DNA from: Phycisphaerales bacterium
Lineage (GTDB): Bacteria; Planctomycetota; Phycisphaerae; Phycisphaerales; UBA1924
Reading direction: 5' to 3'
DNA length: 64,000 bases
Assembly: GCA_029260345.1 (NCBI GenBank)
Contig: JAJDDK010000006.1
Location: 372,001 to 436,000 of the forward strand
Program-made: the position numbers and the translations under genes
The notes under the pieces: model-generated
Databases searched by the model: none
Seen by the model: the letters and a program-made list of their open reading frames with translations, nothing else
What the model was told of the DNA's origin: nothing
Shown: piece after piece, positions 2,996 through 58,457 of the stretch
Layout: the number at the start of each line of letters is the position of its first letter
How positions within the stretch are numbered: position 1 is the first letter of the stretch

Positions 2996-4179
2996 GACGG
3001 CGATTCCGTTGGTTGAAGCGCGGCAAGCCCCATCGCTTCGCGCGTCGGCGCATGCCGAATTTCACCACCATGCACGATGCACATCGGTCCGATCATGTCG
3101 TCTTCCAGATTGATGACCATCTCGCCGGACGGCGCCAGTTCTTTCAGAAGCTCCGCGACGTTGCGCCCATACATCTGGCTTGCATGCACCGGGGCGCCCG
3201 CCGGTAGATTTGTTGGACCAGCGATCGTGACGCCGTTGTCTGTGGTGATAGTTTCGCCCGGTTGTGTGAGTGCGCAGTTGCCGCCGGCTTCCGCCGCGAG
3301 ATCCACAATGACCGCGCCCGGCCGCATGCGCCCTACGTTTGTTTCATCGATGAGTCGCGGCGCCGCCTTGCCGGGCGCCAGCGCCGTCGTGATGATCACA
3401 TCACTGCCGGCCACATGTTCCGCGAGCAGTTCGCGCTGCCGGCGCTGGTCATCCTCGCTGAGCGCCTTGGCGTAGCCGCCGGCCGTTTCCGTGTCACCGC
3501 TGGGAAGGGCAATCTCGACGAATCGAGCGCCGAGACTCAAGACCTGTTCCTTCGCGGCCGGGCGAATGTCGTACCCCTCGACCACGGCGCCGAGCCGACG
3601 TGTCGTTGCGATCGCCTGCAAACCCGCAACGCCGGCGCCGATCACCAACACTCGCGCCGGTGTAATGGTTCCAGCGGCGGTCATCATCATGGGGAAAAAC
3701 TTCGGACACATCTCCGCGGCGACAATTCCCGCGCGATATCCGGCGACGGTGCTCATCGACGAAAGCGCATCAATTTTTTGCGCTCGGGTAATGCGCGGCG
3801 CCGCCTCAAATGCAAATGCGGAAATGCCTTGCTCGGCGCATTTTCGCATGAGGTCATGATTCTCAGTCGAGCGAAGCATGCCGACGAGCGTCGAACCAGG
3901 CTGCATGTGTCCGACCAGCCCCGGTTCCGGCGGGTTGACTGTCACGACCACATCAGCGCGCGACCACAACATGTCCGCTTCGACGATCTCGGCGCCGACG
4001 ATGTCATACGCGCTGTCCGCCACATGCGCGCCGCGCCCGGCGGATCGTTCGATCAGGAATCGAAAGGGGGGATCACCGTCGCCTTTGGTCGCGGCGAGTT
4101 TCGCGACTGAATCCGGCAGCATCGCCACGCGGGTTTCACCCGGGCGAACTTCAAGCGGAATTCCGACCACCACCGTCAT
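2992..4179 (-). CDS. pntAA: NAD(P) transhydrogenase subunit alpha-1 (NAD-binding)
   Basis: Soluble NAD(H)-binding subunit (395 residues) of proton-translocating transhydrogenase, related to alanine dehydrogenase. The N-terminus (VGIPLEVRPGETRVAMLPD) is the family signature. The Rossmann nucleotide-binding segment is VLVIGAGVAGLQAIATTRRL, followed by VVEGYDIRPAAKEQVLSLGA. The conserved VIVDLAAEAGGNCALT segment lies near residue 290. ATG 4179 is preceded by GGAG eight bases upstream. It is the first gene of the pntAA-pntAB-pntB operon and faces away from recQ, with about 75 bases between the two starts holding both promoters. E. coli encodes alpha as a single chain; the split form here is common in other bacteria. 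Confidence 0.96.
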   Translation of the reverse strand: MTVVVGIPLEVRPGETRVAMLPDSVAKLAATKGDGDPPFRFLIERSAGRGAHVADSAYDIVGAEIVEADMLWSRADVVVTVNPPEPGLVGHMQPGSTLVGMLRSTENHDLMRKCAEQGISAFAFEAAPRITRAQKIDALSSMSTVAGYRAGIVAAEMCPKFFPMMMTAAGTITPARVLVIGAGVAGLQAIATTRRLGAVVEGYDIRPAAKEQVLSLGARFVEIALPSGDTETAGGYAKALSEDDQRRQRELLAEHVAGSDVIITTALAPGKAAPRLIDETNVGRMRPGAVIVDLAAEAGGNCALTQPGETITTDNGVTIAGPTNLPAGAPVHASQMYGRNVAELLKELAPSGEMVINLEDDMIGPMCIVHGGEIRHAPTREAMGLAALQPTESPS

Positions 4180-15761: not shown

Positions 15762-17906
15762 ATGAAGCTTCGCATTTCTATGGCTGCAGGGCTGGTCGCT
15801 CTTGCAGGAACCGCGGCGCCAGCATTGGCGCAGGACAGCATTTCGCTGAATCAAGGTTTGCCCGGCGATGCGCTCGATGCGTACGCCGCGGAAAATCAAG
15901 TTCAGCGTTACGTCGTTGATCTCACCCCTTTCATGGCGTCTATGGGCACGGAATTCGGCATTGCTCCGATCGTCAAGGCGAGCCTGGGTGACCCGGCGTT
16001 CTTCAATCATCTGATGAGCGCGCAGGCCATCAGCCGCACGATGTTGCAGAATCAGCCGTTCTCTGGCGCGGCATACGCGGTGTGGAACACGCCCGGCGCC
16101 GGCGTCAACGCCTCAGAGAACTCGGCGCCGAATTCGATCACCCCGAACGGCGTCGGCAATCAGTTCGCCGTGGCGTTCAATGAGTTTGGCGGCGAGGCGC
16201 AGAACCTCGTCGGCGCACTCGTGAATGTTGATCCCGTAAACACCAGCCGCTTGTTTGTGAGCCGCATCATGGCGGCCGTCAACGGCACGTCGTTTGGTGA
16301 AGAAGCGTCCTCCATGGGTGGCGTCGCCGTTGATTCCAACGGCAACACGTACTTCCGTTCTGATGGCTTCGGCATTTCTGTGGGCAATCTGCCTGCCGGC
16401 TCCAGCGCCATTGGCGCCAGCGGCCCCGGCGATGACAACGTTTTCCGCGTAAAGATGCAGAATCGCGCCGCGATGATGCTCAACTTGATCGACGATGCGG
16501 GCGGCAGCGATATCGCCGCGACGGATCGTTTGATCGCGAACTCTGCGGACACCATCTCGGTCGCCAGCGGAATCGCCGAGCAGATCGCGGGTCGTCCGAT
16601 CCTCGTCGGCACGAACTTCAATGATCAGGTGCTCGCTGAAACCATGCCAAATGTGGTGACGGCTTCGGCGGGTCACCTCTCCGGTCTTGGCAACGGTGCG
16701 CAGCGCGGCTCAATCGCGGTGAGTGAATCGGTGCTTTTCCCGAATTCGTCTGGAACGCTAGCGCTGCTCACGAAGCCCAATGGCTCTGAAACCAACGCGA
16801 TGAGCGTGTGGGGCGTGGACAACAATGCGAACATCGTCGGTTCACCATTGCACCTGATTTATCCCGGCGCCGGAGCCATGGATAACATCGATCCGTTCAG
16901 CTACATCATGCCGGTCGGTGGCGACACCGGATTCGATCACTATCACAGTCAGGTCGCGTTCCGCGGCGGTGTGAGCCAAATCGCGCTGGGCAGCGATGCG
17001 CAGGGTCGCGGGCTTGCCGGCGCCGTCGCTTACATCGTCGGCGGCAACAACGACCCGTCAAACGTGATCCCAGTGGCTCGATTTGACGCCAACACCGGCG
17101 CGATTGAATGGGCGCTGGCTGCATGGGCCGATGCCACGCAGCTTGGCGAGTGGCCCGAAGGCAAGCCGATTCGTGATGCGAGCGGCGCCGCGATCGGTGA
17201 ACTCACGACCCTTTTTCAGGTGACGGGCGGTTCGCCGTTCGGACCGTCAATGTCGTCACCGGGCATTGACGCCGCCGGCAACTTGTGGTTCCTGTCTGCG
17301 GTGCAGCTCTACAACGGTGATGACGACGATTTGATGCCGTTCAACGGTCTTGAGCCGACGCCGCCGAACGGTGACGACATCTACACCTCCGGTTTGATTC
17401 GCGCGGTCTACGACGAGGCGAACTTCGGCTGGAATCTTGAACTCGTGTTCCGCCTTGGCGATACGTTCCGCGGTCAGAACTCGGACACCGACTGGACCGT
17501 GGCCTTCCTCGGCATCGCCGATGCTGACTCCATCAGCAGCGGGTCGTTCTTCTCACACAACGTGATGGAGACCGCGTGGAACGGCATGGACACGAGTTCG
17601 CTTTCGACGAATGACCCGCGCCACTCCGGCGGCGTCATCGTCAATGCTTCGATCGCTTACACCCCGGACGTCGAGGGCGCGATGGAAGAGCGCTACAACG
17701 CCGCTCTGTTTGTCGGTGCGATGAACGCCGAGAACGCCTGCCCGCAGGATCTCACCGGTGATCAGGTCGTCAACGGCGCTGACCTTGCGAACCTGCTGGC
17801 GAATTGGGGAATGAATCCCGGCGCTGCGGCGGACTTCAATGGTGATGGTCTCGTCAATGGCGCTGACCTTGCTGCGCTCCTGGCGAACTGGGGCGACTGC
17901 ATCTGA
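15762..17906 (+). CDS. Secreted protein with C-terminal dockerin-type repeats
   Basis: A 714-residue exported protein with signal peptide (MAAGLVALAGTAAPALAQ) and a long central region of unknown fold. The central region has phrases such as GGVAVDSNGNTYFRSDGF and SSPGIDAAGNLWFLSAV that recall beta-propeller-like repeats. It ends in two dockerin-type EF-hand-like repeats separated by about 15 residues: [20 protein letters not shown] and [20 protein letters not shown]. The calcium-ligand positions are kept, with one Gln for Gly in the first. ATG 15762 has a good ribosome binding site (GAGGAGA). In planctomycetes such tails occur on many secreted proteins; cohesin partners are not visible here. 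Confidence 0.88.
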   Translation: MKLRISMAAGLVALAGTAAPALAQDSISLNQGLPGDALDAYAAENQVQRYVVDLTPFMASMGTEFGIAPIVKASLGDPAFFNHLMSAQAISRTMLQNQPFSGAAYAVWNTPGAGVNASENSAPNSITPNGVGNQFAVAFNEFGGEAQNLVGALVNVDPVNTSRLFVSRIMAAVNGTSFGEEASSMGGVAVDSNGNTYFRSDGFGISVGNLPAGSSAIGASGPGDDNVFRVKMQNRAAMMLNLIDDAGGSDIAATDRLIANSADTISVASGIAEQIAGRPILVGTNFNDQVLAETMPNVVTASAGHLSGLGNGAQRGSIAVSESVLFPNSSGTLALLTKPNGSETNAMSVWGVDNNANIVGSPLHLIYPGAGAMDNIDPFSYIMPVGGDTGFDHYHSQVAFRGGVSQIALGSDAQGRGLAGAVAYIVGGNNDPSNVIPVARFDANTGAIEWALAAWADATQLGEWPEGKPIRDASGAAIGELTTLFQVTGGSPFGPSMSSPGIDAAGNLWFLSAVQLYNGDDDDLMPFNGLEPTPPNGDDIYTSGLIRAVYDEANFGWNLELVFRLGDTFRGQNSDTDWTVAFLGIADADSISSGSFFSHNVMETAWNGMDTSSLSTNDPRHSGGVIVNASIAYTPDVEGAMEERYNAALFVGAMNAENACPQDLTGDQVVNGADLANLLANWGMNPGAAADFNGDGLVNGADLAALLANWGDCI

Positions 17907-18131: not shown

Positions 18132-19508
18132 ATGAAACATCGAAATTGGAAGTCGCACGCTCATGCGGCGGGCGTTCTATGCGTCGTCATCGGCGCCCTG
18201 CTTTCGCCGGGTTTGGCCAGTGCGCAGTGGAATCCATCGCAGGGCAACTGGGGAAAAGATGACGCGGCGCACGTCCGCGTGATGACCTGGAACGTGAAGG
18301 ATCACTTGTGCAGCACGGCGAACAAGCAGGAAGCGCTCAATAGCTGGTCTGCGATGGCGGTGATTGTGGCGTCGATGAAGCCGGACATTCTGATCATGCA
18401 GGAGACGGGTGACAACGACGGCAATGGAACCGGATTTGCAGTCGACAGCATCAATGCACTTTCGGCGGTGGCGGAATTGTTCTTGCATGGCGGCGTCGAT
18501 CCGTTTCTCGGCGGAACGGTCGGCTCGTACGTGCAGAAGTACGATCCGACGTTCGACCTTCCGTTCATTTTCGTGAGTTCGGCGACTGACGGTTTCAACC
18601 GCAACATCATCTTGAGCCGCTGGCCCTTTACTGACCTCAATGGCGACGGACGCTCGACTTTGAATGACATCCCGTTTGTTTCGAGCACGAGTTACGCGCC
18701 GGGAGGCGATGGAGGCATCCGAGGATTTCAGTTTGCTGAGATTGACTTGCCGGATGAGGTGTACGCGGGTGATCTCGTCATCGGCAATGCGCATTTGAAG
18801 GCCGGCGGGTCCGGCTCGGATGTGATACAGCGCCGGCAAGCGGCGCAGAATGTCGTGTACTTCATTGACCACTGGTACAACGGCGGTGGCGCCGGGATTC
18901 CGGATCCGAATAACGCGATCTCAGACAGCCCGCAGGCGCAGACTATTCTTGACGCCGCGACGCCGGTCATTATTGGCGGCGACTGGAATGAGGATGAAGC
19001 GACGAACGGGAACAAGGGCCCGGCGGAATGGTTGACGCGAGCGCAGTTCACGGGCGGCACGGACGGCGCCGATCGCGACCGCAGCGATAGCGCTTTCGAC
19101 AACGCGCTCGATCCACTGACGGGGAGTCGCGGCACGTTCGGTGGCTCCAGCAAGCTTGACTACATCGGCTGGCAGGACAGTGTCGCGACGCAGGTGCGCG
19201 CCTGGATCTTTAACACGGCGTCGCTCAATTCAACGACGGCGCCGTCGGAGGTCGCCGCTTTTCCCGGTCTTGGCACAGCACTTTCAGGCGCAGCATCTGA
19301 CCACCGTCCCGTGATTGCCGACTTCGCACTCGCGATTGCGGTGCTCTGTACGGCGGATCTCAATGGTGACGGAATCGTTGACGGTTCGGACCTTGCTTCC
19401 TTGCTGGCCGGGTGGGGCGCTGATGGCCCTGCTGATCTGAATGATGACGGCATGGTCAACGGCGCCGATCTTGCCGCGCTGCTTGCGGCATGGGGCGTCT
19501 GCAACTAA
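18132..19508 (+). CDS. Secreted endonuclease/exonuclease/phosphatase-family protein with dockerin
   Basis: A 458-residue exported protein. After the signal peptide (VLCVVIGALLSPGLASA) it shows the EEP superfamily pattern: VMTWNVKDHL (Asn), IMQETGDNDG (metal-binding Glu), IGNAHLKAGG (His), IIGGDWNEDE (Asp-x-Asn) and the final SDHRPVIADF (catalytic Asp-His). These residues support a metal-dependent phosphodiesterase or phosphatase outside the cell. The C-terminus has two dockerin-type repeats (DLNGDGIVDGSDLASLLAGW and [20 protein letters not shown]). It follows another dockerin gene on the same strand after a terminator. The substrate (DNA, sphingolipid or inositol phosphate) cannot be told. 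Confidence 0.88.
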   Translation: MKHRNWKSHAHAAGVLCVVIGALLSPGLASAQWNPSQGNWGKDDAAHVRVMTWNVKDHLCSTANKQEALNSWSAMAVIVASMKPDILIMQETGDNDGNGTGFAVDSINALSAVAELFLHGGVDPFLGGTVGSYVQKYDPTFDLPFIFVSSATDGFNRNIILSRWPFTDLNGDGRSTLNDIPFVSSTSYAPGGDGGIRGFQFAEIDLPDEVYAGDLVIGNAHLKAGGSGSDVIQRRQAAQNVVYFIDHWYNGGGAGIPDPNNAISDSPQAQTILDAATPVIIGGDWNEDEATNGNKGPAEWLTRAQFTGGTDGADRDRSDSAFDNALDPLTGSRGTFGGSSKLDYIGWQDSVATQVRAWIFNTASLNSTTAPSEVAAFPGLGTALSGAASDHRPVIADFALAIAVLCTADLNGDGIVDGSDLASLLAGWGADGPADLNDDGMVNGADLAALLAAWGVCN

Positions 19509-20984: not shown

Positions 20985-23240
20985 TCAGCCACCTTTGCCC
21001 CAGTTGGCGAGAAGTGTGGCCAGGTCGGCGCCGTTGACGACGCCATCATCGTTGAGATCGTTCGCGCAGGGAGGATTGGCGCAGGCGCCCCACGAAGCGA
21101 GCAGAGTGGCGAGGTCGGCGCCGTCCACCGTGCCATCGCCGTTGAAATCAACAAATGAGTTGGCCGGCGCGACGGTGTAGGCGAAAACGGCGTGGCCGCC
21201 CGGCTCGCCATCGCCGGTGATGAATGCCTCGCCGGGGATGGCGTCGGTGGTTTCACCATCGAGCGAGGCGCCGCCAGTTAAGGCGGTCACGGTGTCCATG
21301 ACGGTCAACGTGTACTCGCCCGCAGGAAGTGGTGAATTAGGAGTGATGGTCGCGGTTTGGCCGCCTGCGTCGTACGACAAGCTCATCGATACGTCTCCGG
21401 CGGGGCTGGTGAGGAGAATGTCTGAGGCGTCAATGTCAACCGGGACGTGGAATGTCACATGGATCATTGAATCGGCGCTGAGTTCTGAACCGGGCGCAGG
21501 CGAAGCGCCAACGATCTTCGGCGGCCCGTCAATAAATGCCACTTCGTCTGACTCTTGTGCAAGGATCCGCGTGTCGGGATCGAAGATGACATCAGTGGCC
21601 GTTGCGTCAACAGGAATCAGAAAATGCTCGAGCGGCGCGTTGTTGTCGAGCACGTGCCGTGTTGACATGCTCGCGCTGTCGATATGGACTTCGATCGGCA
21701 TCGTGAAAAGGTTGTAATGCTCCGGCTGCGCCTGGCGGACCATCACTTCGACAAACTGCTGTCCGGCGACCTCTCGCATCGTCCACGCGTGCTCATACCA
21801 CGGGGCGCCGACGCCGAAAACCCACTGGTCGAAGTACCACGAAATGTCCTCACCTGTAATGGATTCGACGATTGATTGATAATCGGCGGTGATGGCGCTG
21901 CCGTACTCGTGCGCCTGCCGGTATTGAATCAATGAATCGAAGAAGGCATCATCACCAATCACATATCGCAACATGTGCAGAATCCACGCGCCTTTTCGAT
22001 ACGTGAAACTGCTGGAAAAGATGCGTGAGGGATCGATCGGGTCGAAAACGTACGTGCTGCCGTCAAAGAGACCGGGTCGTCTGTTGGACATCGCTTCGTG
22101 CAACGCCTCGGTATCCTGGCCATTTTTGAATTCCAGCCACAATGCTTCGGAGTAGGTTGCGAATCCTTCGTTGAGCCAGATGTCGCTCCATGTGGCGCAG
22201 GTGATCATGTCGCCCCACCACTGGTGCGCGAGTTCGTGGGCGGTCAGGCTCTCGCCGAATCCGCCCTGACCTGTCATGGTTTGATGCTCCATGCCGCCGC
22301 CGAAGTTGAACTGGTAGATGCCGTACTTCTCATCGATGAATGGATACGGCCCGAATAGATCGCCGAACACGTCCAGCATCGGGATGACACGGAGCAAGCG
22401 ATCTCGATTGTTTGGCGTATCGCTTTGGGGATAGATGTAAAACTCAAGCGGCATGACGCCTTCATCATGGACGAACACGTCGCTGAAGCGCGTGTAATTT
22501 GTTGCGGCGAAGCTGTGCAGATAGGTCGTCATTGGATAAACGGCGGACCAGTGCGTTGTCGCCCGTCCGTCCCCGAGATCCGTTTCGGATTGGAGCAATC
22601 CGTTTGACGCGATGCTCATCCAGCTTGGCGCGGTGAATCGCAGGTCCGCGGTCGCCTTATCGCGGTTGTCGTCCTTGTTGGGCCACCACGTGAACGAAAA
22701 CCACGGCTCACTCAGTGTGAAGACGACTGGCGTGCCGGCCTGCATCGTGAAGTTGATGGAGCCAAAACCGAGCGATTCGGGATCGCCCGCGTAATCGACG
22801 AAGACTTCGAAGGTCTGATCCGCCGCGACTGGCGCCGGCAGTGTGATCTCAATCGTTCGGTCGTCGAGACGCACCCAGTTGGACGAGAGAGTGTCAACAG
22901 CGACTGAGCTGATGGCAAACTCGTCGTCGAGGCGCACCTGAAAAGTTGACAAGCCGTCAACGAGGCTTCGAACGGTCATCGTGTTCGAGCCGCCGAGTTC
23001 GCCGGCGGTCGGATCGATCTCAATGTTGATGTCGTTGTGAAGGAGGTCGGTCAGATCGTTGGGATTCACGGCGCCTTCGGGAGCCGCGTTCATGAGCGGC
23101 GCCAGTCGATCGGACCGCTGCTTGCCCTCGGCGCAGAGATCAGCGCCGATGCGGTTGAGCGTTGGGTCCGCATCCGCCGCGACGGACGTGATCGAAGTCA
23201 AACAAAAGGCGCCGAGTGCGGCGAAACGGAAATATCGCAT
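20985..23240 (-). CDS. Secreted M1-family aminopeptidase with dockerin repeats
   Basis: A 751-residue exported zinc metallopeptidase. After the signal peptide (YFRFAALGAFCLTSITSVAA) comes the M1 N-terminal beta domain. The catalytic domain has FNFGGGMEHQTMTG (the GxMEN site, with His in place of Asn) and the zinc motif LTAHELAHQWWGD plus NEGFATYSE. A Tyr-containing region follows. Then come Ig-like segments (PKIVGASPAPGSELSAD) and two dockerin-type repeats at the end ([40 protein letters not shown]). ATG 23240 has GGTGGGA upstream. It is likely a cell-surface or secreted peptide scavenger and is possibly co-transcribed with the zinc-binding protein downstream. Confidence 0.93.
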   Translation of the reverse strand: MRYFRFAALGAFCLTSITSVAADADPTLNRIGADLCAEGKQRSDRLAPLMNAAPEGAVNPNDLTDLLHNDINIEIDPTAGELGGSNTMTVRSLVDGLSTFQVRLDDEFAISSVAVDTLSSNWVRLDDRTIEITLPAPVAADQTFEVFVDYAGDPESLGFGSINFTMQAGTPVVFTLSEPWFSFTWWPNKDDNRDKATADLRFTAPSWMSIASNGLLQSETDLGDGRATTHWSAVYPMTTYLHSFAATNYTRFSDVFVHDEGVMPLEFYIYPQSDTPNNRDRLLRVIPMLDVFGDLFGPYPFIDEKYGIYQFNFGGGMEHQTMTGQGGFGESLTAHELAHQWWGDMITCATWSDIWLNEGFATYSEALWLEFKNGQDTEALHEAMSNRRPGLFDGSTYVFDPIDPSRIFSSSFTYRKGAWILHMLRYVIGDDAFFDSLIQYRQAHEYGSAITADYQSIVESITGEDISWYFDQWVFGVGAPWYEHAWTMREVAGQQFVEVMVRQAQPEHYNLFTMPIEVHIDSASMSTRHVLDNNAPLEHFLIPVDATATDVIFDPDTRILAQESDEVAFIDGPPKIVGASPAPGSELSADSMIHVTFHVPVDIDASDILLTSPAGDVSMSLSYDAGGQTATITPNSPLPAGEYTLTVMDTVTALTGGASLDGETTDAIPGEAFITGDGEPGGHAVFAYTVAPANSFVDFNGDGTVDGADLATLLASWGACANPPCANDLNDDGVVNGADLATLLANWGKGG

Positions 23241-25716: not shown

Positions 25717-27174
25717 ATGAGCATTGATTGCGGACGATCGTGGTTTGTGATTGGCGCTGTGGTGTTCAGCGGCGCCGAAGCGCTGGCTCAAGCATTTGAT
25801 GCGTGCATTACCAGTTCACCTTCGAGCATCAATGAACGATTCGGCCGTGAGATTGATATTGATGGCGCCTTTCTCATCACCGGGGCGCCCGGGCCGAATG
25901 AGTTCACGGCGTCGTTGCCTGGCGCTGCGTTTATTCATCGGCGCACCGGCGCGGGCGCGTGGGAGCAAGAAGCGCAACTGATGCAACCTGATCCGGCCGC
26001 GTGAGATTTCTTCGGCTGGTCCGTTGATCTTGAAGGGACGGTTGCGATTGTGGGGGCGCCCAAGCGTGATGACTGCGGCAAGGGTGTGAATTGCAATATT
26101 GGCGCCGCGTATGTCTTTCGACGCACGGCGCCGGGCGTGTGGGAGCTTGAACAGACGCTTTTCGCCAGCGATCCGGCGCCGGGCGATGAGTTTGGGTTCG
26201 ACGTCACGATTGAAGGCGATCTCGCGGCGATCAGTGCGCCGTTTGACGATGACAACGGAAGCACGTCTGGCTCGGTGTATTTGTTTCGCCGCGATGGGTC
26301 GGGTGTTTGGAATGAAGTGGACAAGGTCATTTCCAGTGATGGACAGAACAATGATTTTTTCGGCCAGTCCGTGATTTTGAGTGACGGTGTTCTGGCCGTC
26401 GGCGCCAGCGGTGAGAGCAGCGCGGGCGGCAACTCCGGCGCGGTGTATGTGTTTGAGGACGCGGGCGCGGACGACTGGTTGGAGATTGACAAACTCGTCG
26501 CGGATGATGCGTTTCAAGGCGATCAATTCGGGTTTGATGTTGACTTTGATGGCGACGTGATTGTGGTGGGTGTGCCGCTGAGTGACACGTCCTGCGGCAC
26601 GTTTCTATGCAATGGCGGCGCGGTGTATGTGTTCCGCCGCAATGGGCAGGGGACGTGGGATCAGGAAGCGCGAATATTTCCGCAGGATGCGGTGTCCAGC
26701 GACTTTTTCGGATTCGCGGTCGGCGTGTCGGGCGACACTGTTGTTGCGTCCAGCGTGCGCGAGGATGATGCGGGCAACAGCGCCGGCGCGATGTACGTTT
26801 TCCAGCGCACGGCGCCGTCGGTGTGGAGTGAGCAGCTCAAACTCACGGCGCCGGATGGCGAGGCGGGGGATGAGCTTGGATATTCCGCCGCAATTGATGG
26901 TGTGATCGGTGTGGCCGGGGCGCGATTTGACGATGTGGCGTGCCCACTCAATCCGAATTGCAATTCAGGGTCGGTCTATGCGTGGACGCTGCGTCAGTTC
27001 GGCGACGTGAAGCCGGGCGATTTCAATTCTGATGGCGTGATCAACGGCTTTGATCTCGCCACGCTGCTCGCGGCGTGGGGAACGAACGGGCAGGGCACCG
27101 GCGCGGATCTGAATGGCGACGGCATCGTTGACGGCATCGATCTTGCGACGCTGCTTGCCAACTGGGGCGCGTGA
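25717..27174 (+). pseudogene. FG-GAP/integrin-like secreted protein with dockerin, broken by in-frame TGA
   Basis: The frame opens at ATG 25717 (GGAGGGG upstream) and encodes a signal-like N-terminus. It is stopped by TGA at 26002-26004, then continues in the same frame for 389 more codons to 27174. The product would hold about seven FG-GAP-like repeats of the form D-x-FG-x-V-x2-x-GD-x2-V-x-AP followed by YVFRR, and two C-terminal dockerin repeats (DFNSDGVINGFDLATLLAAW, DLNGDGIVDGIDLATLLANW). At the stop the repeat pattern demands glycine: the next unit reads DPAPGDEFG and this one DPAA-stop-DFFG, so a GGA to TGA change explains it. It is a recent nonsense mutation or a sequencing error. Start codon choice is firm. 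Confidence 0.85.
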
Positions 27175-30711: not shown

Positions 30712-30790
30712 GGTGCGGCGTGCAGGATAGCGGCGCAGTCAGGCTTGAACGGCGCTGTTCATGGTTGAGGCTTTGAGGAGGGAGAGGTGG

Positions 30791-30960
30791 GGAGCCCTCA
30801 CCTGTCAATGCTTTGCATTGACATCCTCTCCCAGGGGGAGAGGAGTTTGGAGCCCTCACCCGTCAACGCTTCGCGTTGCCACCCTCTCCCAAGGGGAGAG
30901 GGAGTTTGGAGCCCTCACCTGTCAATGCTTTGGATTGCCATCCGCTCCCTTAGGAGAGGG
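30791..30960. repeat. Three tandem ~58-base units, each with two hairpins (REP/BIME-like)
   Basis: Units start at 30791, 30849 and 30908, each opening GGAGCCCTCACC. Each unit contains a first palindrome and a second CT/AG-rich palindrome (CCTCTCCC / GGGAGAGG and relatives). In unit 1 the first stem is GTCAATGC-TTT-GCATTGAC. In unit 2 it is GTCAACGC-TTC-GCGTTGCC, where a T-A pair has become C-G with pairing kept. Unit 3 is more degenerate. It lies downstream of the atpC stop, so it may also stabilise or end that transcript. The units resemble bacterial REP-type intergenic palindromes. Confidence 0.85.
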
Positions 30961-50102: not shown

Positions 50103-52361
50103 GTGGCAAGGTTAGTCACCCGCGATTATCAGCGTGAATCCGACGTGCGCATCGGCCCCTCCGAAGTTGCGGAGTGTCTGGTGAGGTGCGCTTGTTTTCT
50201 TGTGCGATTTGGACTTCGTTTGCACGGATCGCATTCCCCGCCGCGCGGGCACATCGTCCCAGACTCGTTTGTGGGCATTTGTGTCGCGACATCGCCTGAC
50301 CCGGCGTGCGGCGAATACATCGTGCGTCAGTTGCGAGAAATCGGCGTCACGCATGTGCGGCTGGATTATTCCTACGGCAGCGAAGCCAGGCAAACGGCGA
50401 GGTTTCTTGACCTTCTGCTGAACAACTCTTTCGCCGTGCTCCTTCATTTGGTTCAGCCTTTTGAAGAAGCGCGAGCGATGGACACACCGAAGGCGCAGCG
50501 GCGCTGGAGCGCATTTGTCGATACGACGCTGGATCAGTGGGGGGATCGGATTGATTCGGTGGAGATCGGCTCTGCGGTGAACCGGCGCAAGTGGGCGGGA
50601 TACACGTCTGAAACGTTCTCGACGGCGTGGCGCATTGGGCACGATGTTGCGCGACGACACGATGTGACGCTGGTCGGTCCGAACGTGAACGACTTTGAGC
50701 CGATGTACAACATCACGTACTTGTGCCGCATGCGTGCGGCTGAGGCGCTGCCGGATGTGCATTCCAACAATTTGTTTGTTGAGCGCGCGGTGGAGCCGGA
50801 GCGGTACGACCACAAAATTCTTGGTCATTCGTTGGCGCCGCTGACGAAATTCAACACGATCAAAAAGGCGCGGCTCCTGCATTGCGTGTCCGAATCGGTC
50901 GGCGTCAATGAGACGTGGTCTACGCACGTCGCATGGAGCGGGCGGCGCATTGATCGTGTGCTTGCGGATGTGCGCGAGAAACAGGCTGATTATCTGGCGC
51001 GGTACTACCTGCTGACAGCGGCTTCCGGGGCGCTGGCAAGGGTGTACTGGGGACCGATGATCGGGCAGCGTGAGGGGATCATTGACGATGGGACAGATGA
51101 GTATCCCAGTGATTTTCCGCGCGCCTTTATCTATGAGCATGTGTACGGCGAGGTGAGCGATTATCGCGTGCTGCCGGCGCTGCACGCGATGAAGACGTTT
51201 GCGAATCTCATTCCCGGAATGCGGTACGACGGCGCGCTGTCCAGTTCTTTCGGGCTGGAAATGCACGCGTTCAGCGATGAGCGCGGCGTGGTGCATGCGC
51301 TCTGGACGATGAACAGTCGAGGGGCGGAGCTTTCCGATCTGTATTCAGCGCACGACATTGCGGAAGCGAAGTGGTTGAGCCGCGATGGGGAGACGTTGTC
51401 GGAGCCGCCGCCCATGATTTCGCACTCGCCGGTGTATGCGGTGTGGCCAGCCGAGCGGCAGATTGTTGTGAAACCGAAGGCGAAGACGATTGCTGACCTT
51501 GTGATGGATGATCCGGGACATGTGTATCGCGAGGGCGAGTGGCGGGGCGTGGTCGCGGCGGCGACGACGGAGGAACGTGATCGACTGCTTGCGGTGATTG
51601 GGCCGCGCGTCGTGAAGGAGGCGAAGCGGCTGAAGACGCTGCGCGATGCGCGCAACACGGTGTGGTGCATTGAAGATCCGCTGAACCCCGGCGAGGCGCT
51701 GGTCGTGAAGCGGTGGCTGCTCAAACCATTGCACAAGCGGGCGCTGGATTCCTTCAAGCCGTCGCGAGCGCGGCGGAGCTGGAACGGCGCGAGCGAATTG
51801 CTGCGCCGGGGTGTGGGCACGCCGCGACCGGTGGCGTTTTTTGAGCATTCGACGCGGGGTGTGCTGAAGGAAAACTTCTACATCTGCGCGTTCACCACCG
51901 GCGGGCTGACGGTGCGGAGTTTCTTCACGGCGTACGGCAAGGGGCAGGGCGAGTTTGAGGGCGTGCCCGCGACGAAGTTTTATGAGAAATACGCGGATTT
52001 CCTGATCGACATGCACCGGCGCGGCGTGCATTACCGCGATATGTCGCCGGGGAACATTCTTGTTGAGATGTGCGACGGCGGCGAGTTGCGATTCCTGATG
52101 GTGGACACGACGCGTGCACGGTTCTTCGAACGCCCGGCGACGGTGCGACAGAGCCTGTCGGACCTGAAGCGCACGTGCCACCCGCTGCACTGGGAAGGCC
52201 GCAAGGAGTTCGTGGGGATTTATCTTGAAAAGCGCGGCGAGGAGTTCACGCCGCTGCGGCAGTTGCCGTTTGCGCTGTACGATCACAAGCAGCGATTCAA
52301 GAATCGCACGAAGAAATGGCGGCAGGGGCTGCGGTCGCTGGTGTCGCGGTCTCCGGGATGA
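50103..52361 (+). CDS. Glycosidase-like TIM barrel fused to WaaP/Kdo-type lipopolysaccharide kinase
   Basis: A 752-residue protein with two parts. Residues about 50-460 resemble a clan-A glycosidase barrel (FVGICVATSPDPACGEYIVR; HVRLDYSYG; WGDRIDSVEIGSAVNRRKWA; VSESVGVNETW). At the usual Asn-Glu acid site the sequence reads SA, so the acid is not conserved. Residues about 490-740 resemble LPS heptose/Kdo kinases: the Lys in EALVVKRWLLKP, the catalytic loop GVHYRDMSPGNILVE at about 640-654, and the metal-binding MVDTTRARFF near 665. GTG 50103 has GGGAG upstream. It is translationally coupled to the GNAT gene. A role in glycolipid phosphorylation is inferred. Confidence 0.75.
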   Translation: MARLVTRDYQRESDVRIGPSEVAECLVRCACFLVRFGLRLHGSHSPPRGHIVPDSFVGICVATSPDPACGEYIVRQLREIGVTHVRLDYSYGSEARQTARFLDLLLNNSFAVLLHLVQPFEEARAMDTPKAQRRWSAFVDTTLDQWGDRIDSVEIGSAVNRRKWAGYTSETFSTAWRIGHDVARRHDVTLVGPNVNDFEPMYNITYLCRMRAAEALPDVHSNNLFVERAVEPERYDHKILGHSLAPLTKFNTIKKARLLHCVSESVGVNETWSTHVAWSGRRIDRVLADVREKQADYLARYYLLTAASGALARVYWGPMIGQREGIIDDGTDEYPSDFPRAFIYEHVYGEVSDYRVLPALHAMKTFANLIPGMRYDGALSSSFGLEMHAFSDERGVVHALWTMNSRGAELSDLYSAHDIAEAKWLSRDGETLSEPPPMISHSPVYAVWPAERQIVVKPKAKTIADLVMDDPGHVYREGEWRGVVAAATTEERDRLLAVIGPRVVKEAKRLKTLRDARNTVWCIEDPLNPGEALVVKRWLLKPLHKRALDSFKPSRARRSWNGASELLRRGVGTPRPVAFFEHSTRGVLKENFYICAFTTGGLTVRSFFTAYGKGQGEFEGVPATKFYEKYADFLIDMHRRGVHYRDMSPGNILVEMCDGGELRFLMVDTTRARFFERPATVRQSLSDLKRTCHPLHWEGRKEFVGIYLEKRGEEFTPLRQLPFALYDHKQRFKNRTKKWRQGLRSLVSRSPG

Positions 52362-52900
52362 CGGCGCCGGTTAAGCAATACCGAATCGGTCCGAAGACGG
52401 ATCGGCTGATGCACCGCGCGATGACGATTGACGATGCGGCGGCGTTCTACGCGCTGAACAGTCATCCGGAGGTGATGCGCTACACGGGCGAGCCGCCGCT
52501 GCGATCGGTGGATGAAGCCCGCGACGTGATCGCGGCGTATCCGGATTTCGACACGCACGGGTTCGGGCGATGGGGGTGTGTGCTGAAGGACACCGGCGCG
52601 CTGATTGGCTTTTGCGGGCTGAAATATCTGGATGAGCTTGGTGAAGTTGATGTCGGGTTTCGGTTCCTGCCCGAGTATTGGGGGCGCGGCTTGGCGACGG
52701 AGGCGTGCCGCGCTTGTGTTGATTTTGGGTTTGAGAGGATGGGTCTGAAACGAATCATCGCGTTGGTGCTGCCGGAGAATTTGGCTTCGATTCGGGTGCT
52801 GGAGAAGGTTGGGATGCGGTTTGATGGGGAGGTGGGGTATGAGGGGATTGTGGCGCTGCGGTATGTGGTTGAGGCGGCGCGTGGTGGCGAGAAGAGGTGA
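52358..52900 (+). CDS. GNAT N-acetyltransferase (RimJ/RimL type)
   Basis: A 180-residue acetyltransferase. GPKTDRLMHRAMTIDDAAAF, YPDFDTHGFGRWGCVLKDTG, VGFRFLPEYWGRGLATEACR (acetyl-CoA motif R/Q-x-x-G-x-G/A as GRGLAT) and VLPENLASIRVLEKVGMRF are the RimJ/RimL-family pattern. These enzymes acetylate proteins or small amines; the substrate is unknown. ATG 52358 overlaps the stop of the fusion gene (ATGA), implying a two-gene operon. The upstream partner suggests a surface-glycan or lipid modification. Confidence 0.88.
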   Translation: MTAPVKQYRIGPKTDRLMHRAMTIDDAAAFYALNSHPEVMRYTGEPPLRSVDEARDVIAAYPDFDTHGFGRWGCVLKDTGALIGFCGLKYLDELGEVDVGFRFLPEYWGRGLATEACRACVDFGFERMGLKRIIALVLPENLASIRVLEKVGMRFDGEVGYEGIVALRYVVEAARGGEKR

Positions 52901-52910
52901 AACGGAGTAT

Positions 52911-52987
52911 GCCATGGTCTCGCTGTTAGCGAAGCCATGTTGTTGCCTCACGAACAACGCATGGCCTGGTCTGCGACCAGACCATGG
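52911..52987. repeat. Palindromic element able to form a compact cloverleaf
   Basis: A 76-base core (52912-52987) is closed by a 7-bp stem CCATGGT/ACCATGG. It holds three hairpins with almost no spacers: TCGCT-GTT-AGCGA (52920-52932); an 11-bp arm GCCATG+TTGTT / AACAA+CATGGC with a 2-base bulge (52934-52965); and CTGGTC-TGC-GACCAG (52966-52980). Pairing is perfect apart from the bulge. It has no tRNA sequence features. It lies directly between the GNAT gene and a lower-GC gene, in the manner of REP-like or small non-autonomous elements. Confidence 0.8.
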
Positions 52988-53038
52988 AACTTAGAGGCCA
53001 TCCACCTGCTTAGAGATCACATTGTTTAGGTTGTTCTA

Positions 53039-54226
53039 ATGCAATCAACAACCAACATCCCGCTTGACGTTTCAGATTCAGGTCGAATGCTCAGAGTAAA
53101 ATGGGTATATGCGCGCCTCATCGTCGTGTTCGGAATATGCACGTCAATTTCTATCAATGGCATGACTGGCGCATGGTTTGAAGCAATTCAGGTTGCCCTT
53201 GGTGGGATCGTTGCGATCATTGCTTCCCATTTCATTCACGTCTTCCTCAAATCGATGAGTACTGCCGCCAGAAGACATTCTGGACATCAAGATTTTGGAT
53301 TCACGGATCGGCCGTATGTCGGACCCTTTTTCATTCCACTTCTTGTGCTGTTTTCAGCAGTGCTCCTCTACTTTCAAGGAGTCGCGATTGGCTTTGCGCC
53401 GCATGTTGGCGCTAGCATCGCTGCGGTAGTTTCGAGTGTGCTTGCGCTCCTGGTGTTTTCTCAGCTCGATGATTCGGCCAAGTGGGCAGATGCGACCCAT
53501 GCCGCGTGTCTGTGTCCGGAATGCGGACTGAATTCACAAAATTCAATTGATCGTCAAAGATCCTGGCGCCATCGGATTTTCTCTCGCGTAGTTGCAGCAT
53601 CCAACTTGGGCATTCTTGGCCTACTCCTTGCTGCTATTGTCGTTCGATCGATGAACTTAAGAACTGCGTTCCCGCCGCAAATCCCTCATCGAGTGCCATT
53701 TGGGCCTCACATGGCCGACGAGCTCGAAATCGATCCAGATTCAGATCCGCCGCATGTGCGATTGTCCAGAGGAATGAGCGGATGGTCGGAGAAGGAATCT
53801 CTTATTGGCATCGCATCGGGTGATGAAGTTGATGAAATTGTTTTTCGCCATGGCGGAACAATCATGGCTCAAACTCACTGCATGATGGGCGTTTATTTGG
53901 GCTCATACCGATCGTATGAGTTAGTTCGTCCAAATGGTCGTTCTGATGACTTGCTGATCTGGTCACCAGACGTCATTGATGCAAAGACTTCAATTATGCA
54001 ACGAGATGATGAACTCAATTTCGTTTGGCTAAATAGCTTCGGAAATTCATTGCAATGTCTTCAAATTAACGTATTTGCGATCATGTCGCTCGGCGTGCTG
54101 AGCATTATCGTTTCTGCCACGGCCGGACAAATCAGTGTGCTATTTGTCTACATTCGCGCAAAAAGACGCGAATCAAAGGGGCTCTGCCCTCAGTGTGCTT
54201 ATCAGCTCACGAGAGCGCACGATTAA
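53039..54226 (+). CDS. Zinc-ribbon membrane protein, atypical composition
   Basis: A 395-residue membrane protein with about six hydrophobic helices (LIVVFGICTSISINGMTG, IQVALGGIVAIIASHFIHVF, IPLLVLFSAVLLYFQGVAIG, VSSVLALLVFSQL, ASNLGILGLLLAAIVVRSM, IMSLGVLSIIVSATAGQISV). It also carries two Cys pairs (CLCPECGLNS near 158 and CPQCAYQLT at the C-terminus), similar to zinc-ribbon ends seen on planctomycete membrane proteins. The DNA is visibly more AT-rich than its neighbours and a cloverleaf repeat precedes it, hinting at recent acquisition. No function was recognised. Confidence 0.75.
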   Translation: MQSTTNIPLDVSDSGRMLRVKWVYARLIVVFGICTSISINGMTGAWFEAIQVALGGIVAIIASHFIHVFLKSMSTAARRHSGHQDFGFTDRPYVGPFFIPLLVLFSAVLLYFQGVAIGFAPHVGASIAAVVSSVLALLVFSQLDDSAKWADATHAACLCPECGLNSQNSIDRQRSWRHRIFSRVVAASNLGILGLLLAAIVVRSMNLRTAFPPQIPHRVPFGPHMADELEIDPDSDPPHVRLSRGMSGWSEKESLIGIASGDEVDEIVFRHGGTIMAQTHCMMGVYLGSYRSYELVRPNGRSDDLLIWSPDVIDAKTSIMQRDDELNFVWLNSFGNSLQCLQINVFAIMSLGVLSIIVSATAGQISVLFVYIRAKRRESKGLCPQCAYQLTRAHD

Positions 54227-57110: not shown

Positions 57111-58457
57111 ATGAGAACGGGATTTGGAAAGGGACGGTCGCTTGGCGTAGTCGCGGCGCTCGCGGTCACAACGGCTGGATTCGCCGGATCAACCGAGACG
57201 TTTGTTGAAACATTTGACGAGTTGCCTTCGGAAGGCGGCTGGACGTGGGGCGCCGGCGACACGCTCGTTGAAGAAGGCGGCAATCCGGGGAGTTTCTTCG
57301 GCACGGCGACGTTGGCGACGTTTGCGCCGCAGCCGCGCACGACGTCGGCGAAGAATCAGTTTGTCGGCGATTACCGCGGACGCGGCGTGACGAGCATCGG
57401 CGTTGATCTGCAAACATTCGCGGCGAACTTCGGCACGGGCGAGCGGCCGCTGTCGCCGATGTTGATTTATGACAATGGCACGCCGGGTGATCCGTTTGAC
57501 GACACGGCGGCGTATTTCCTGGGGCCGAACATTCCCGCCGTGGGTGAAGGCTGGATTTCGTATGACTTCGACGTGCCGTCGCAGGAAGAGACTTTGCCTG
57601 CGGGATGGGCGCTTTTGAATCTCGGCGACAGCGGTTCACCGGCGAATCATGACTGGAGCACGGTGGTTCAGAACGTGTCGCGCGTTCACTTTCACTACGG
57701 CCATCCTGAATTTTTCTTCCTTCTGCAGGACTGGCAGCTCGGGATGGACAACGTGCGTATCACTGCTGCGGGCGAAGCGCCGGAAGTGATCTACGAGACG
57801 AATGATCCGTTCGGGTCGATCTTTGGCATCAATGGCTTTGACGTGTTTCAGAATCAATCCGTTGCGGTTCGATTTACGCCGGAGAGTGATTTCACGCTTG
57901 CGGATGTCAGCCTTTGGATGTGGAACAACGATGAGAGCGGCACGCCGGCGCCGATCACCGTCAGCGTGCGCACGGACATGATTGATCCGAAGGTCGGCAG
58001 CATTCCCAGTGATGTGATCCTTGAGGAATGGGATTCGGAGATTGCAACGAAAGGTGTGTTTGCGCCGGAGCTCTTTACGTTTTCGTCTGTCGAGACGCCA
58101 GCGCTTCAGGGCGGCGTGAACTACTGGCTTGTCGCGGAGTCTGATGCGCCGGCGCTGCAAGATCCGGTGTGGGCGTGGGCCGCGAATGACACGGGTCTTT
58201 CAACGACCACCGCGTTTGACACCGGTGCATGGCAAACGGCGGGCATGGGCGCGGTTCCGGCGACGATTGTCACCGGCTTTGCGCTGGCCGGGCCGCCGGC
58301 GGATCTCAATGGCGACGGCGTCGTGAACGGGTCCGATCTCGCGGCGCTGCTCGCGCAGTGGGGCACGGATGGCACGGCGGATTTGAATGACGACGGCGTC
58401 GTGAACGGCGCGGACCTCGCAGCGCTGTTGGCTTCGTGGGGAAGCGGGGCCGAGTAA
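57111..58457 (+). CDS. Secreted protein with C-terminal dockerin-type repeats
   Basis: A 448-residue exported protein. The signal peptide is [17 protein letters not shown]. The central region is beta-rich with repeated Gly/Asp/Asn loops ([60 protein letters not shown]) but no family is recognised. The end has two dockerin-type repeats ([40 protein letters not shown]). ATG 57111 has GGAGTGATGAG upstream. A strong terminator follows at 58481. Confidence 0.85.

Follow-up and report, generated by a model that had tools for sequence, protein, structure and literature searches.

The window analysed here is a stretch of 64,000 nucleotides from a Phycisphaerales bacterium, and it contains, at 52911-52987, a compact element that is able to pair almost completely with itself. 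What kind of element is this? The preliminary description suggested a REP-type or small mobile element, or else a structured RNA. It is very likely that the element is a REPIN-like doublet made of two inverted REP units, and probably a dead remnant of a system mobilised by RAYT transposases.

The element occupies the gap between the stop codon at 52900 and the start of the next open reading frame at 53039, extragenic position being scored for this focal copy only. The gene upstream (52316-52900, + strand) encodes a GNAT acetyltransferase (PF13302, E 1.6e-37), whose stop codon lies 8 nt ahead of the first repeat unit. The reading frame downstream (53039-54226, + strand, 395 aa) has no Pfam match. 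Its GC content of about 46-52%, against about 57-67% in most of the surrounding sequence, bears out the earlier remark that the neighbouring gene is shifted in composition. Among 60 relatives it has one weak match (E 3.7e-4), and synteny was uninformative; the gene is probably an orphan or of foreign origin.

The + strand of 52911-52987 folds into a cloverleaf at -35.0 kcal/mol (z -4.23), a value equalled by 1 of 200 shuffled sequences, and the minus strand reaches -38.2 kcal/mol (z -4.94), equalled by none of 200. The 64-kb sequence is GC-rich, and 62 of its 5812 overlapping 77-nt windows have at least as good a fold energy on one strand; thus, the fold alone would not decide the matter. The element is remarkable through its composition-corrected score, its copies and its covariation, and not through absolute energy. 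The cloverleaf (52912-52987, + strand) consists of a closing stem, two outer hairpins and a middle arm, and is the minimum-energy structure with both RNA and DNA parameters. The closing stem of 7 bp given earlier is real, though its length is 8 Watson-Crick pairs (CCATGGTC at 52912-52919 with GACCATGG at 52980-52987). The three perfect or nearly perfect hairpins reported with it do form a cloverleaf, with the corrections that the middle arm is bulged and that the outer hairpins have 5 bp each.

A better description than the cloverleaf is that of two opposed hairpin units, with the whole element measuring about 80-82 bases. Unit 1 (52909-52939, + strand) carries the tag ATGC and a stem of CATGGTCTCGC with GCGAAGCCATG (52913-52923 paired with 52929-52939), while unit 2 (52960-52990, minus strand) carries the tag GTTC and the hairpin CATGGTCTGGTC gca GACCAGGCCATG. 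Between them lies a spacer of 20 nt (52940-52959), which lies at the tip of the middle arm when the clover forms; the spacer hairpin is not conserved in the second copy. Each unit is an imperfect hairpin of about 31 nt with a stem of 11-12 bp that reads CATGGTC...GGCCATG or a close variant, and the sixth stem pair is a T opposite a G. The covariance model R1 scores unit 1, which was in its training set, at 43.2 bits (E 6.3e-7) and unit 2 at 47.6 bits (E 5.0e-8); with model R2, the scores are 29.9 and 44.8 bits, respectively.

As the units are inverted, their outer halves pair to give the 8-bp closing stem and their inner halves pair to give the middle arm. Thus, the cloverleaf is an alternative fold of a REPIN-like doublet. 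On the + strand of the focal copy, the clover is better by about 4-5 kcal/mol than the two halves folded apart, with RNA and DNA parameters alike. On the minus strand, it is also preferred with DNA parameters (-22.2 vs -19.0), and RNA parameters prefer the unit-2 hairpin together with another arm over the clover. The REPINs of Pseudomonas fluorescens SBW25 are likewise described as folding into one long hairpin or a 'clover'. The legend of figure S11 in that paper (PMC3116915) proposes the clover as the form recognised by the enzyme and calls it the less stable fold, whereas in the focal copy, with DNA parameters, no other fold has a lower energy.

The two things whose absence was to speak against the earlier description, a second copy and covariation in relatives, were both found. 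A blastn search of the organism's own genome returned a second full copy at C6:602406-602492 (77% identity, E 1.4e-11) and, at C8:51119, a partial match to what is a rearranged, heads-in pair of units; no copies of the element were present elsewhere inside the 64-kb window. A strict pattern recovered only 1 unit in this genome, being too strict, and covariance models succeeded. Model R1, built from six units (those of the focal copy, the second copy and the C8:51119 pair), finds further units at C6:227894, C6:226805 and C6:804519, followed by a related type. The exact pattern CCATGGTCN{9,17}GGCCATG gives 5 units, and its reversed control gives 0. The focal type numbers about nine units, far fewer than the more than 100 copies per genome that are usual for REPs according to PMC2817692.

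The related type is a sister repeat, GTGCCGTGGTCTT...AAGGCCACG, with 27 exact units in the same genome and none for the control. Repetition of the kind that defines a REP is seen in these 27 units and in the 25 matches of model R2 at E <= 0.001, where focal and sister types are pooled. Twelve of the 27 sister units form six inverted pairs, whose unit starts are all exactly 61 nt apart; in the own genome (G000) they lie at C4:135883/135944, 263942/264003 and 290357/290418, at C5:100200/100261 and 436664/436725, and at C7:120306/120367. In each of the two full copies of the focal type, about 50-52 nt separate the unit starts. Nine exact inverted pairs were also counted among 80 of the matches listed for the repeat pattern. 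Inverted REP pairs with a spacer of regular length are what characterises a REPIN or BIME, and such pairs are found here.

Other repeats were observed along the way. Three head-to-tail repeats of about 58 nt, with the theme CCCTCACC...GTCAACGCTTCGCGTTG...CCCTCTCC, occupy 30772-30947 of the window, and a motif similar to this theme adjoins several sister doublets (L202, G000:C5:290700; L204, C4:290240). A further hairpin repeat, GGTGCCGTGGTAC...AGTGCCACG, occurs in the own genome (L026, L028, L029 and L030, on G000 C7, C4 and C5), and it also has a T opposite G at the same stem step as the focal repeat. A motif of about 70 nt recurs in the window at 17745-17897, 19353-19499, 27016-27171 and 58299-58445, and on the minus strand at 20997-21149; we take it to encode a dockerin-like tail (...W) at the ends of several genes.

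In other genomes, a pattern scan of contigs gave at least 99 loci; of those listed, 63 belong to Planctomycetota, mostly Phycisphaerales, and six come from bin.19. The scan pattern leaves complementarity free at one column pair, where A or G may face C or T. Among the matches listed, all 77 planctomycete units (55 G-C, 22 A-T) and all six units of bin.19 are complementary at this pair. In the remaining listed loci the figure is 16 of 30, which is near chance, the mismatches there including 9 A-C and 5 G-T. Covariation was scored in an alignment (A3) of 28 hand-picked units of 31-nt length, nine from the own genome and 19 from others. In the 12-pair stem, both sides have changed in 31 cells; the shuffle mean is 9.9, with none of 500 shuffles as high, and slid versions of the alignment reach at most 15. 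The unit is therefore an imperfect palindrome of 20-40 nt, as a REP should be, whose pairing is under selection by the evidence of the covariation and the free column pair.

The T.G pair is kept in all 28 aligned units, and also in 19 of 19 model matches outside the forcing of the pattern, though the model was itself trained on T.G. In the relatives, the middle of the stem carries a tandem mismatch that alternates between G.A/A.G and A.C/A.G (alignments A3 and A5), at steps where the units of the window's genome are mostly paired; the tandem mismatch is perhaps a recognition feature. A blastn search with the element in 40 relatives gave no match, the search being too strict, and of the 61 genomes searched with R2, eight, including the own one, have a match at E <= 0.001. 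The family is thus patchy.

A search for a REP-associated transposase, also advised at the outset, succeeded in five relatives; in the own genome, it found no RAYT that carries the focal repeat. Genes resembling the RAYT of the own genome are present in 3 of the 99 listed scan loci. In L103, the RAYT (3373-3909) sits between two inverted repeat pairs (3291-3369 and 3943-4022), and in L061 the RAYT (1520-2095) is accompanied by units at 1409-1438, 2259-2288 and 2353-2382. In L217 (genome G043), L218 (G055) and L219 (G027), units lie about 10-80 nt away on each side; G043 belongs to the same family as the window's organism. In all five, the focal repeat lies on either side of the RAYT, and the protein reaches the cut-off of NF047646 (REP-associated tyrosine transposase), with L103 barely doing so (80.1 vs 80). 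Searched against PDB sequences, the L103 RAYT has only weak matches, to transposases (E about 5e-5). Another RAYT, L117, is flanked by the sister hairpin GGTGCCATGGGCAAGC...GCTTGCCCGTG. With further copies in the own genome, covarying stems in relatives and five RAYTs bracketed by the repeat, the original REP-type guess holds well.

The own genome has four Y1-type genes, one of them above the RAYT cut-off, and the focal repeat lies beside none of the four in an assembly that is 96% complete. The hairpins flanking the own RAYT are CCACTGCTC/GAGCAGTGG, have a GTGTGCC foot and represent a different GTGC-tagged type. This RAYT was considered as the cognate enzyme and rejected as unproven because its flanks carry those hairpins, not the focal stem. 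Beside the remaining three Y1 genes there are different hairpins or none at all. The divergent Y1-type gene of L222 (1291-1890; G000:C6, about 51.7-52.4 kb) is bracketed by CCGGAGCT...AGCTCCGG hairpins at 1216-1242 and 1892-1917, and the two are possibly another small single-strand transposon.

How does the element compare with the known systems? The SBW25 REPINs, as presented in PMC3116915, are likewise inverted REP doublets with a short spacer and a link to a RAYT, and single units are read as remnants there as here. Unlike in SBW25, the copy number here is much lower, the foot is GTGC, and no own RAYT goes with the focal repeat. The REPs of the GTAG and CGTC superfamilies, according to PMC3733652 and PMC2817692, are likewise palindromes of 20-40 nt with a short unpaired 5' tag and, like the element, are often found as opposed pairs downstream of genes. 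REPs in Planctomycetes, among other phyla, have already been published (PMC3733652). The tags named in these two papers include GTAG, with the variants GYAG, GYRG, GTRG, GTMG and GTGG, and CGTC; a word search of their main text did not find GTGC.

The family tag here is GTGC, with GTGG in a minority, and the focal tags are ATGC and GTTC. As these differ from GTAG/GTGG and CGTC, the element is not filed in either superfamily. Judged by sequence, it is a known type of element with a variant tag, one base of which differs from the REP repeats described earlier. The open-licence literature, searched by title and text, held no on-topic paper on REPs or RAYTs in Phycisphaerae or on REPINs in Planctomycetota. 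Within the same literature, no paper on GTGC as a REP tag was seen by title among the matches listed, which does not establish priority.

The stem of E. coli REPs, long and with a conserved mismatch that TnpA_REP needs, may be likened to the focal stem; PMC8266576 further describes a single-stranded substrate and a tag that takes part in recognition. The two differ in the T.G pair and the relatives' tandem G.A/A.G or A.C/A.G seen here, and in the fourth tag base. The class 2 TnpA_Y1 proteins of PMC6006769 have an HUH motif, WQ, Y...NP and their own REP family in the flanks, as here; the HUH motifs in table 1 of that paper start with N or D, whereas most RAYTs here read PEHVH. The automatic search reported there was for GT[AG]G feet, and atypical CnGA feet are mentioned in class 3.

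The link between the GTGC foot and a particular group of transposases was followed in a non-random set of 56 RAYT-type genes (30 best-per-genome, 20 hand-picked above the cut-off and six others), from which the duplicates L254 and L189 were dropped. Clade A comprises the 38 genes that an HMM scores above 100; 16 scored lower, and no match was obtained for a further five Y1 loci. Seven members of the clade went into this HMM, which biases the split by score towards them, and a tree served as the check. In the maximum-likelihood tree, the 38 clade-A RAYTs form one branch (support 99/93), and five canonical RAYTs form a separate one (support 99/99). The HUH motif reads PEHVH in most clade-A members.

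A GTGCC or GTGGC foot is carried by 88 of 196 hairpins within 320 nt of the 38 clade-A RAYTs, compared with 10 of 214 at distances above 700 nt. Without any preset motif, GTGCC emerges as the commonest foot 5-mer around clade A (68 near vs 8 distant) and GTGGC as the next (20 vs 2). The scan finds such a footed hairpin beside 32 of the 38 genes, on both sides in 23; the count rises to 36 when L217, L218 and L219 (model R2) and L195 (inspection) are added, and L177 and L191 are the two of the 38 with no such hairpin. Outside clade A, it is found beside 2 of 16 RAYT-type genes, and the canonical RAYTs L170, L172 and L174 show GTAGGGTGGG in their flanks. The focal stem, of the shared type CRTGGTC...GGCCAYG with the kept T.G pair, occurs on three separate clade-A branches, namely L103/L217, L061 and L218/L219. 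Thus, stem and transposase do not track one to one. We lean slightly towards the proposal that Phycisphaerales have a distinct REP/RAYT superfamily, in which a mostly-PEHVH clade acts on GTGC feet and each RAYT has its own stem, the focal element being a remnant of a stem shared by three lineages.

Among other explanations, the one that survives best, though it is improbable, is that the element is a cis-acting RNA structure of the acetyltransferase mRNA (a 3' stabiliser, attenuator or terminator) and not a mobile repeat. It begins 8 nt past the acetyltransferase stop codon, and its minus-strand hairpin at 52986-52960 is weakly terminator-like in a consensus scan (2 sites vs 0.8 expected). However, no terminator-like site is present on the + strand at the element, and the copies adjoin unrelated genes and, in relatives, RAYTs. 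ARAGORN and the Rfam covariance models report nothing at the element, the only three tRNAs being elsewhere in the window, and with the copies at unrelated loci the dedicated structured RNA raised earlier as an option is not supported.

Lower still is the probability of a MITE, that is, an element that ends in inverted repeats and is moved by a DDE transposase acting on double strands. The ends of the element are indeed mutually inverted repeats and its length, about 82 bp, would suit; the units, however, also occur singly and in heads-in order, their stems covary, and the gene that goes with them is a RAYT of the Y1/HUH kind.

An integron attC site beside a composition-shifted gene cassette is highly improbable. 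Such sites are defined by RYYYAAC and GTTRRRY core sites, and these are absent on both strands of 52851-53060, although the compact, foldable stretch and its position between genes on one strand, one of the genes being low in GC, would have fitted. A chance palindrome, which the 62 windows of 77 nt with at least as good a fold might suggest, is just as remote in view of the shuffling results, the homologous copies and the covariation.

The preferred reading, then, is a REPIN-like doublet, and its present state can be judged from its feet. Both focal feet are mutated from GTGC, to ATGC and GTTC, and the second copy keeps TGTGC on both. With both feet mutated and no own RAYT carrying the repeat, the focal copy is probably a dead remnant; most likely, it is an immobile fossil. 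The regular sister doublets suggest more recent activity by an enzyme that was not found or has been lost. The 3' end of the acetyltransferase mRNA may also still be affected by the element to some extent.

The repeat family has probably been spread in planctomycetes by a single-strand-DNA transposase. By analogy with the REP/RAYT systems as presented in PMC3116915 and PMC8266576, a RAYT (Y1/HUH transposase) acting in trans would copy the units as single-stranded DNA. At the replication fork, each folded hairpin would be bound through its irregular stem and its foot (GTGC, rarely GTGG); the RAYT would then cut next to it and pass the doublet to a new site, and the doublet would be the moving unit.

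A cloverleaf spotted by eye can thus signal a doublet, and the REPIN picture, based mainly on Proteobacteria, is extended to a little-studied order of planctomycetes. A transposase reads its REP at the foot tetranucleotide, which in at least one system, as described in PMC8266576, it also uses to choose the cut site. A RAYT clade with mostly GTGC and some GTGG hairpins would offer a natural series for the co-change of foot and enzyme. If the proposed superfamily is real, a stem common to three RAYT lineages would mean that repeats can switch transposase or be mobilised across RAYT lineages.
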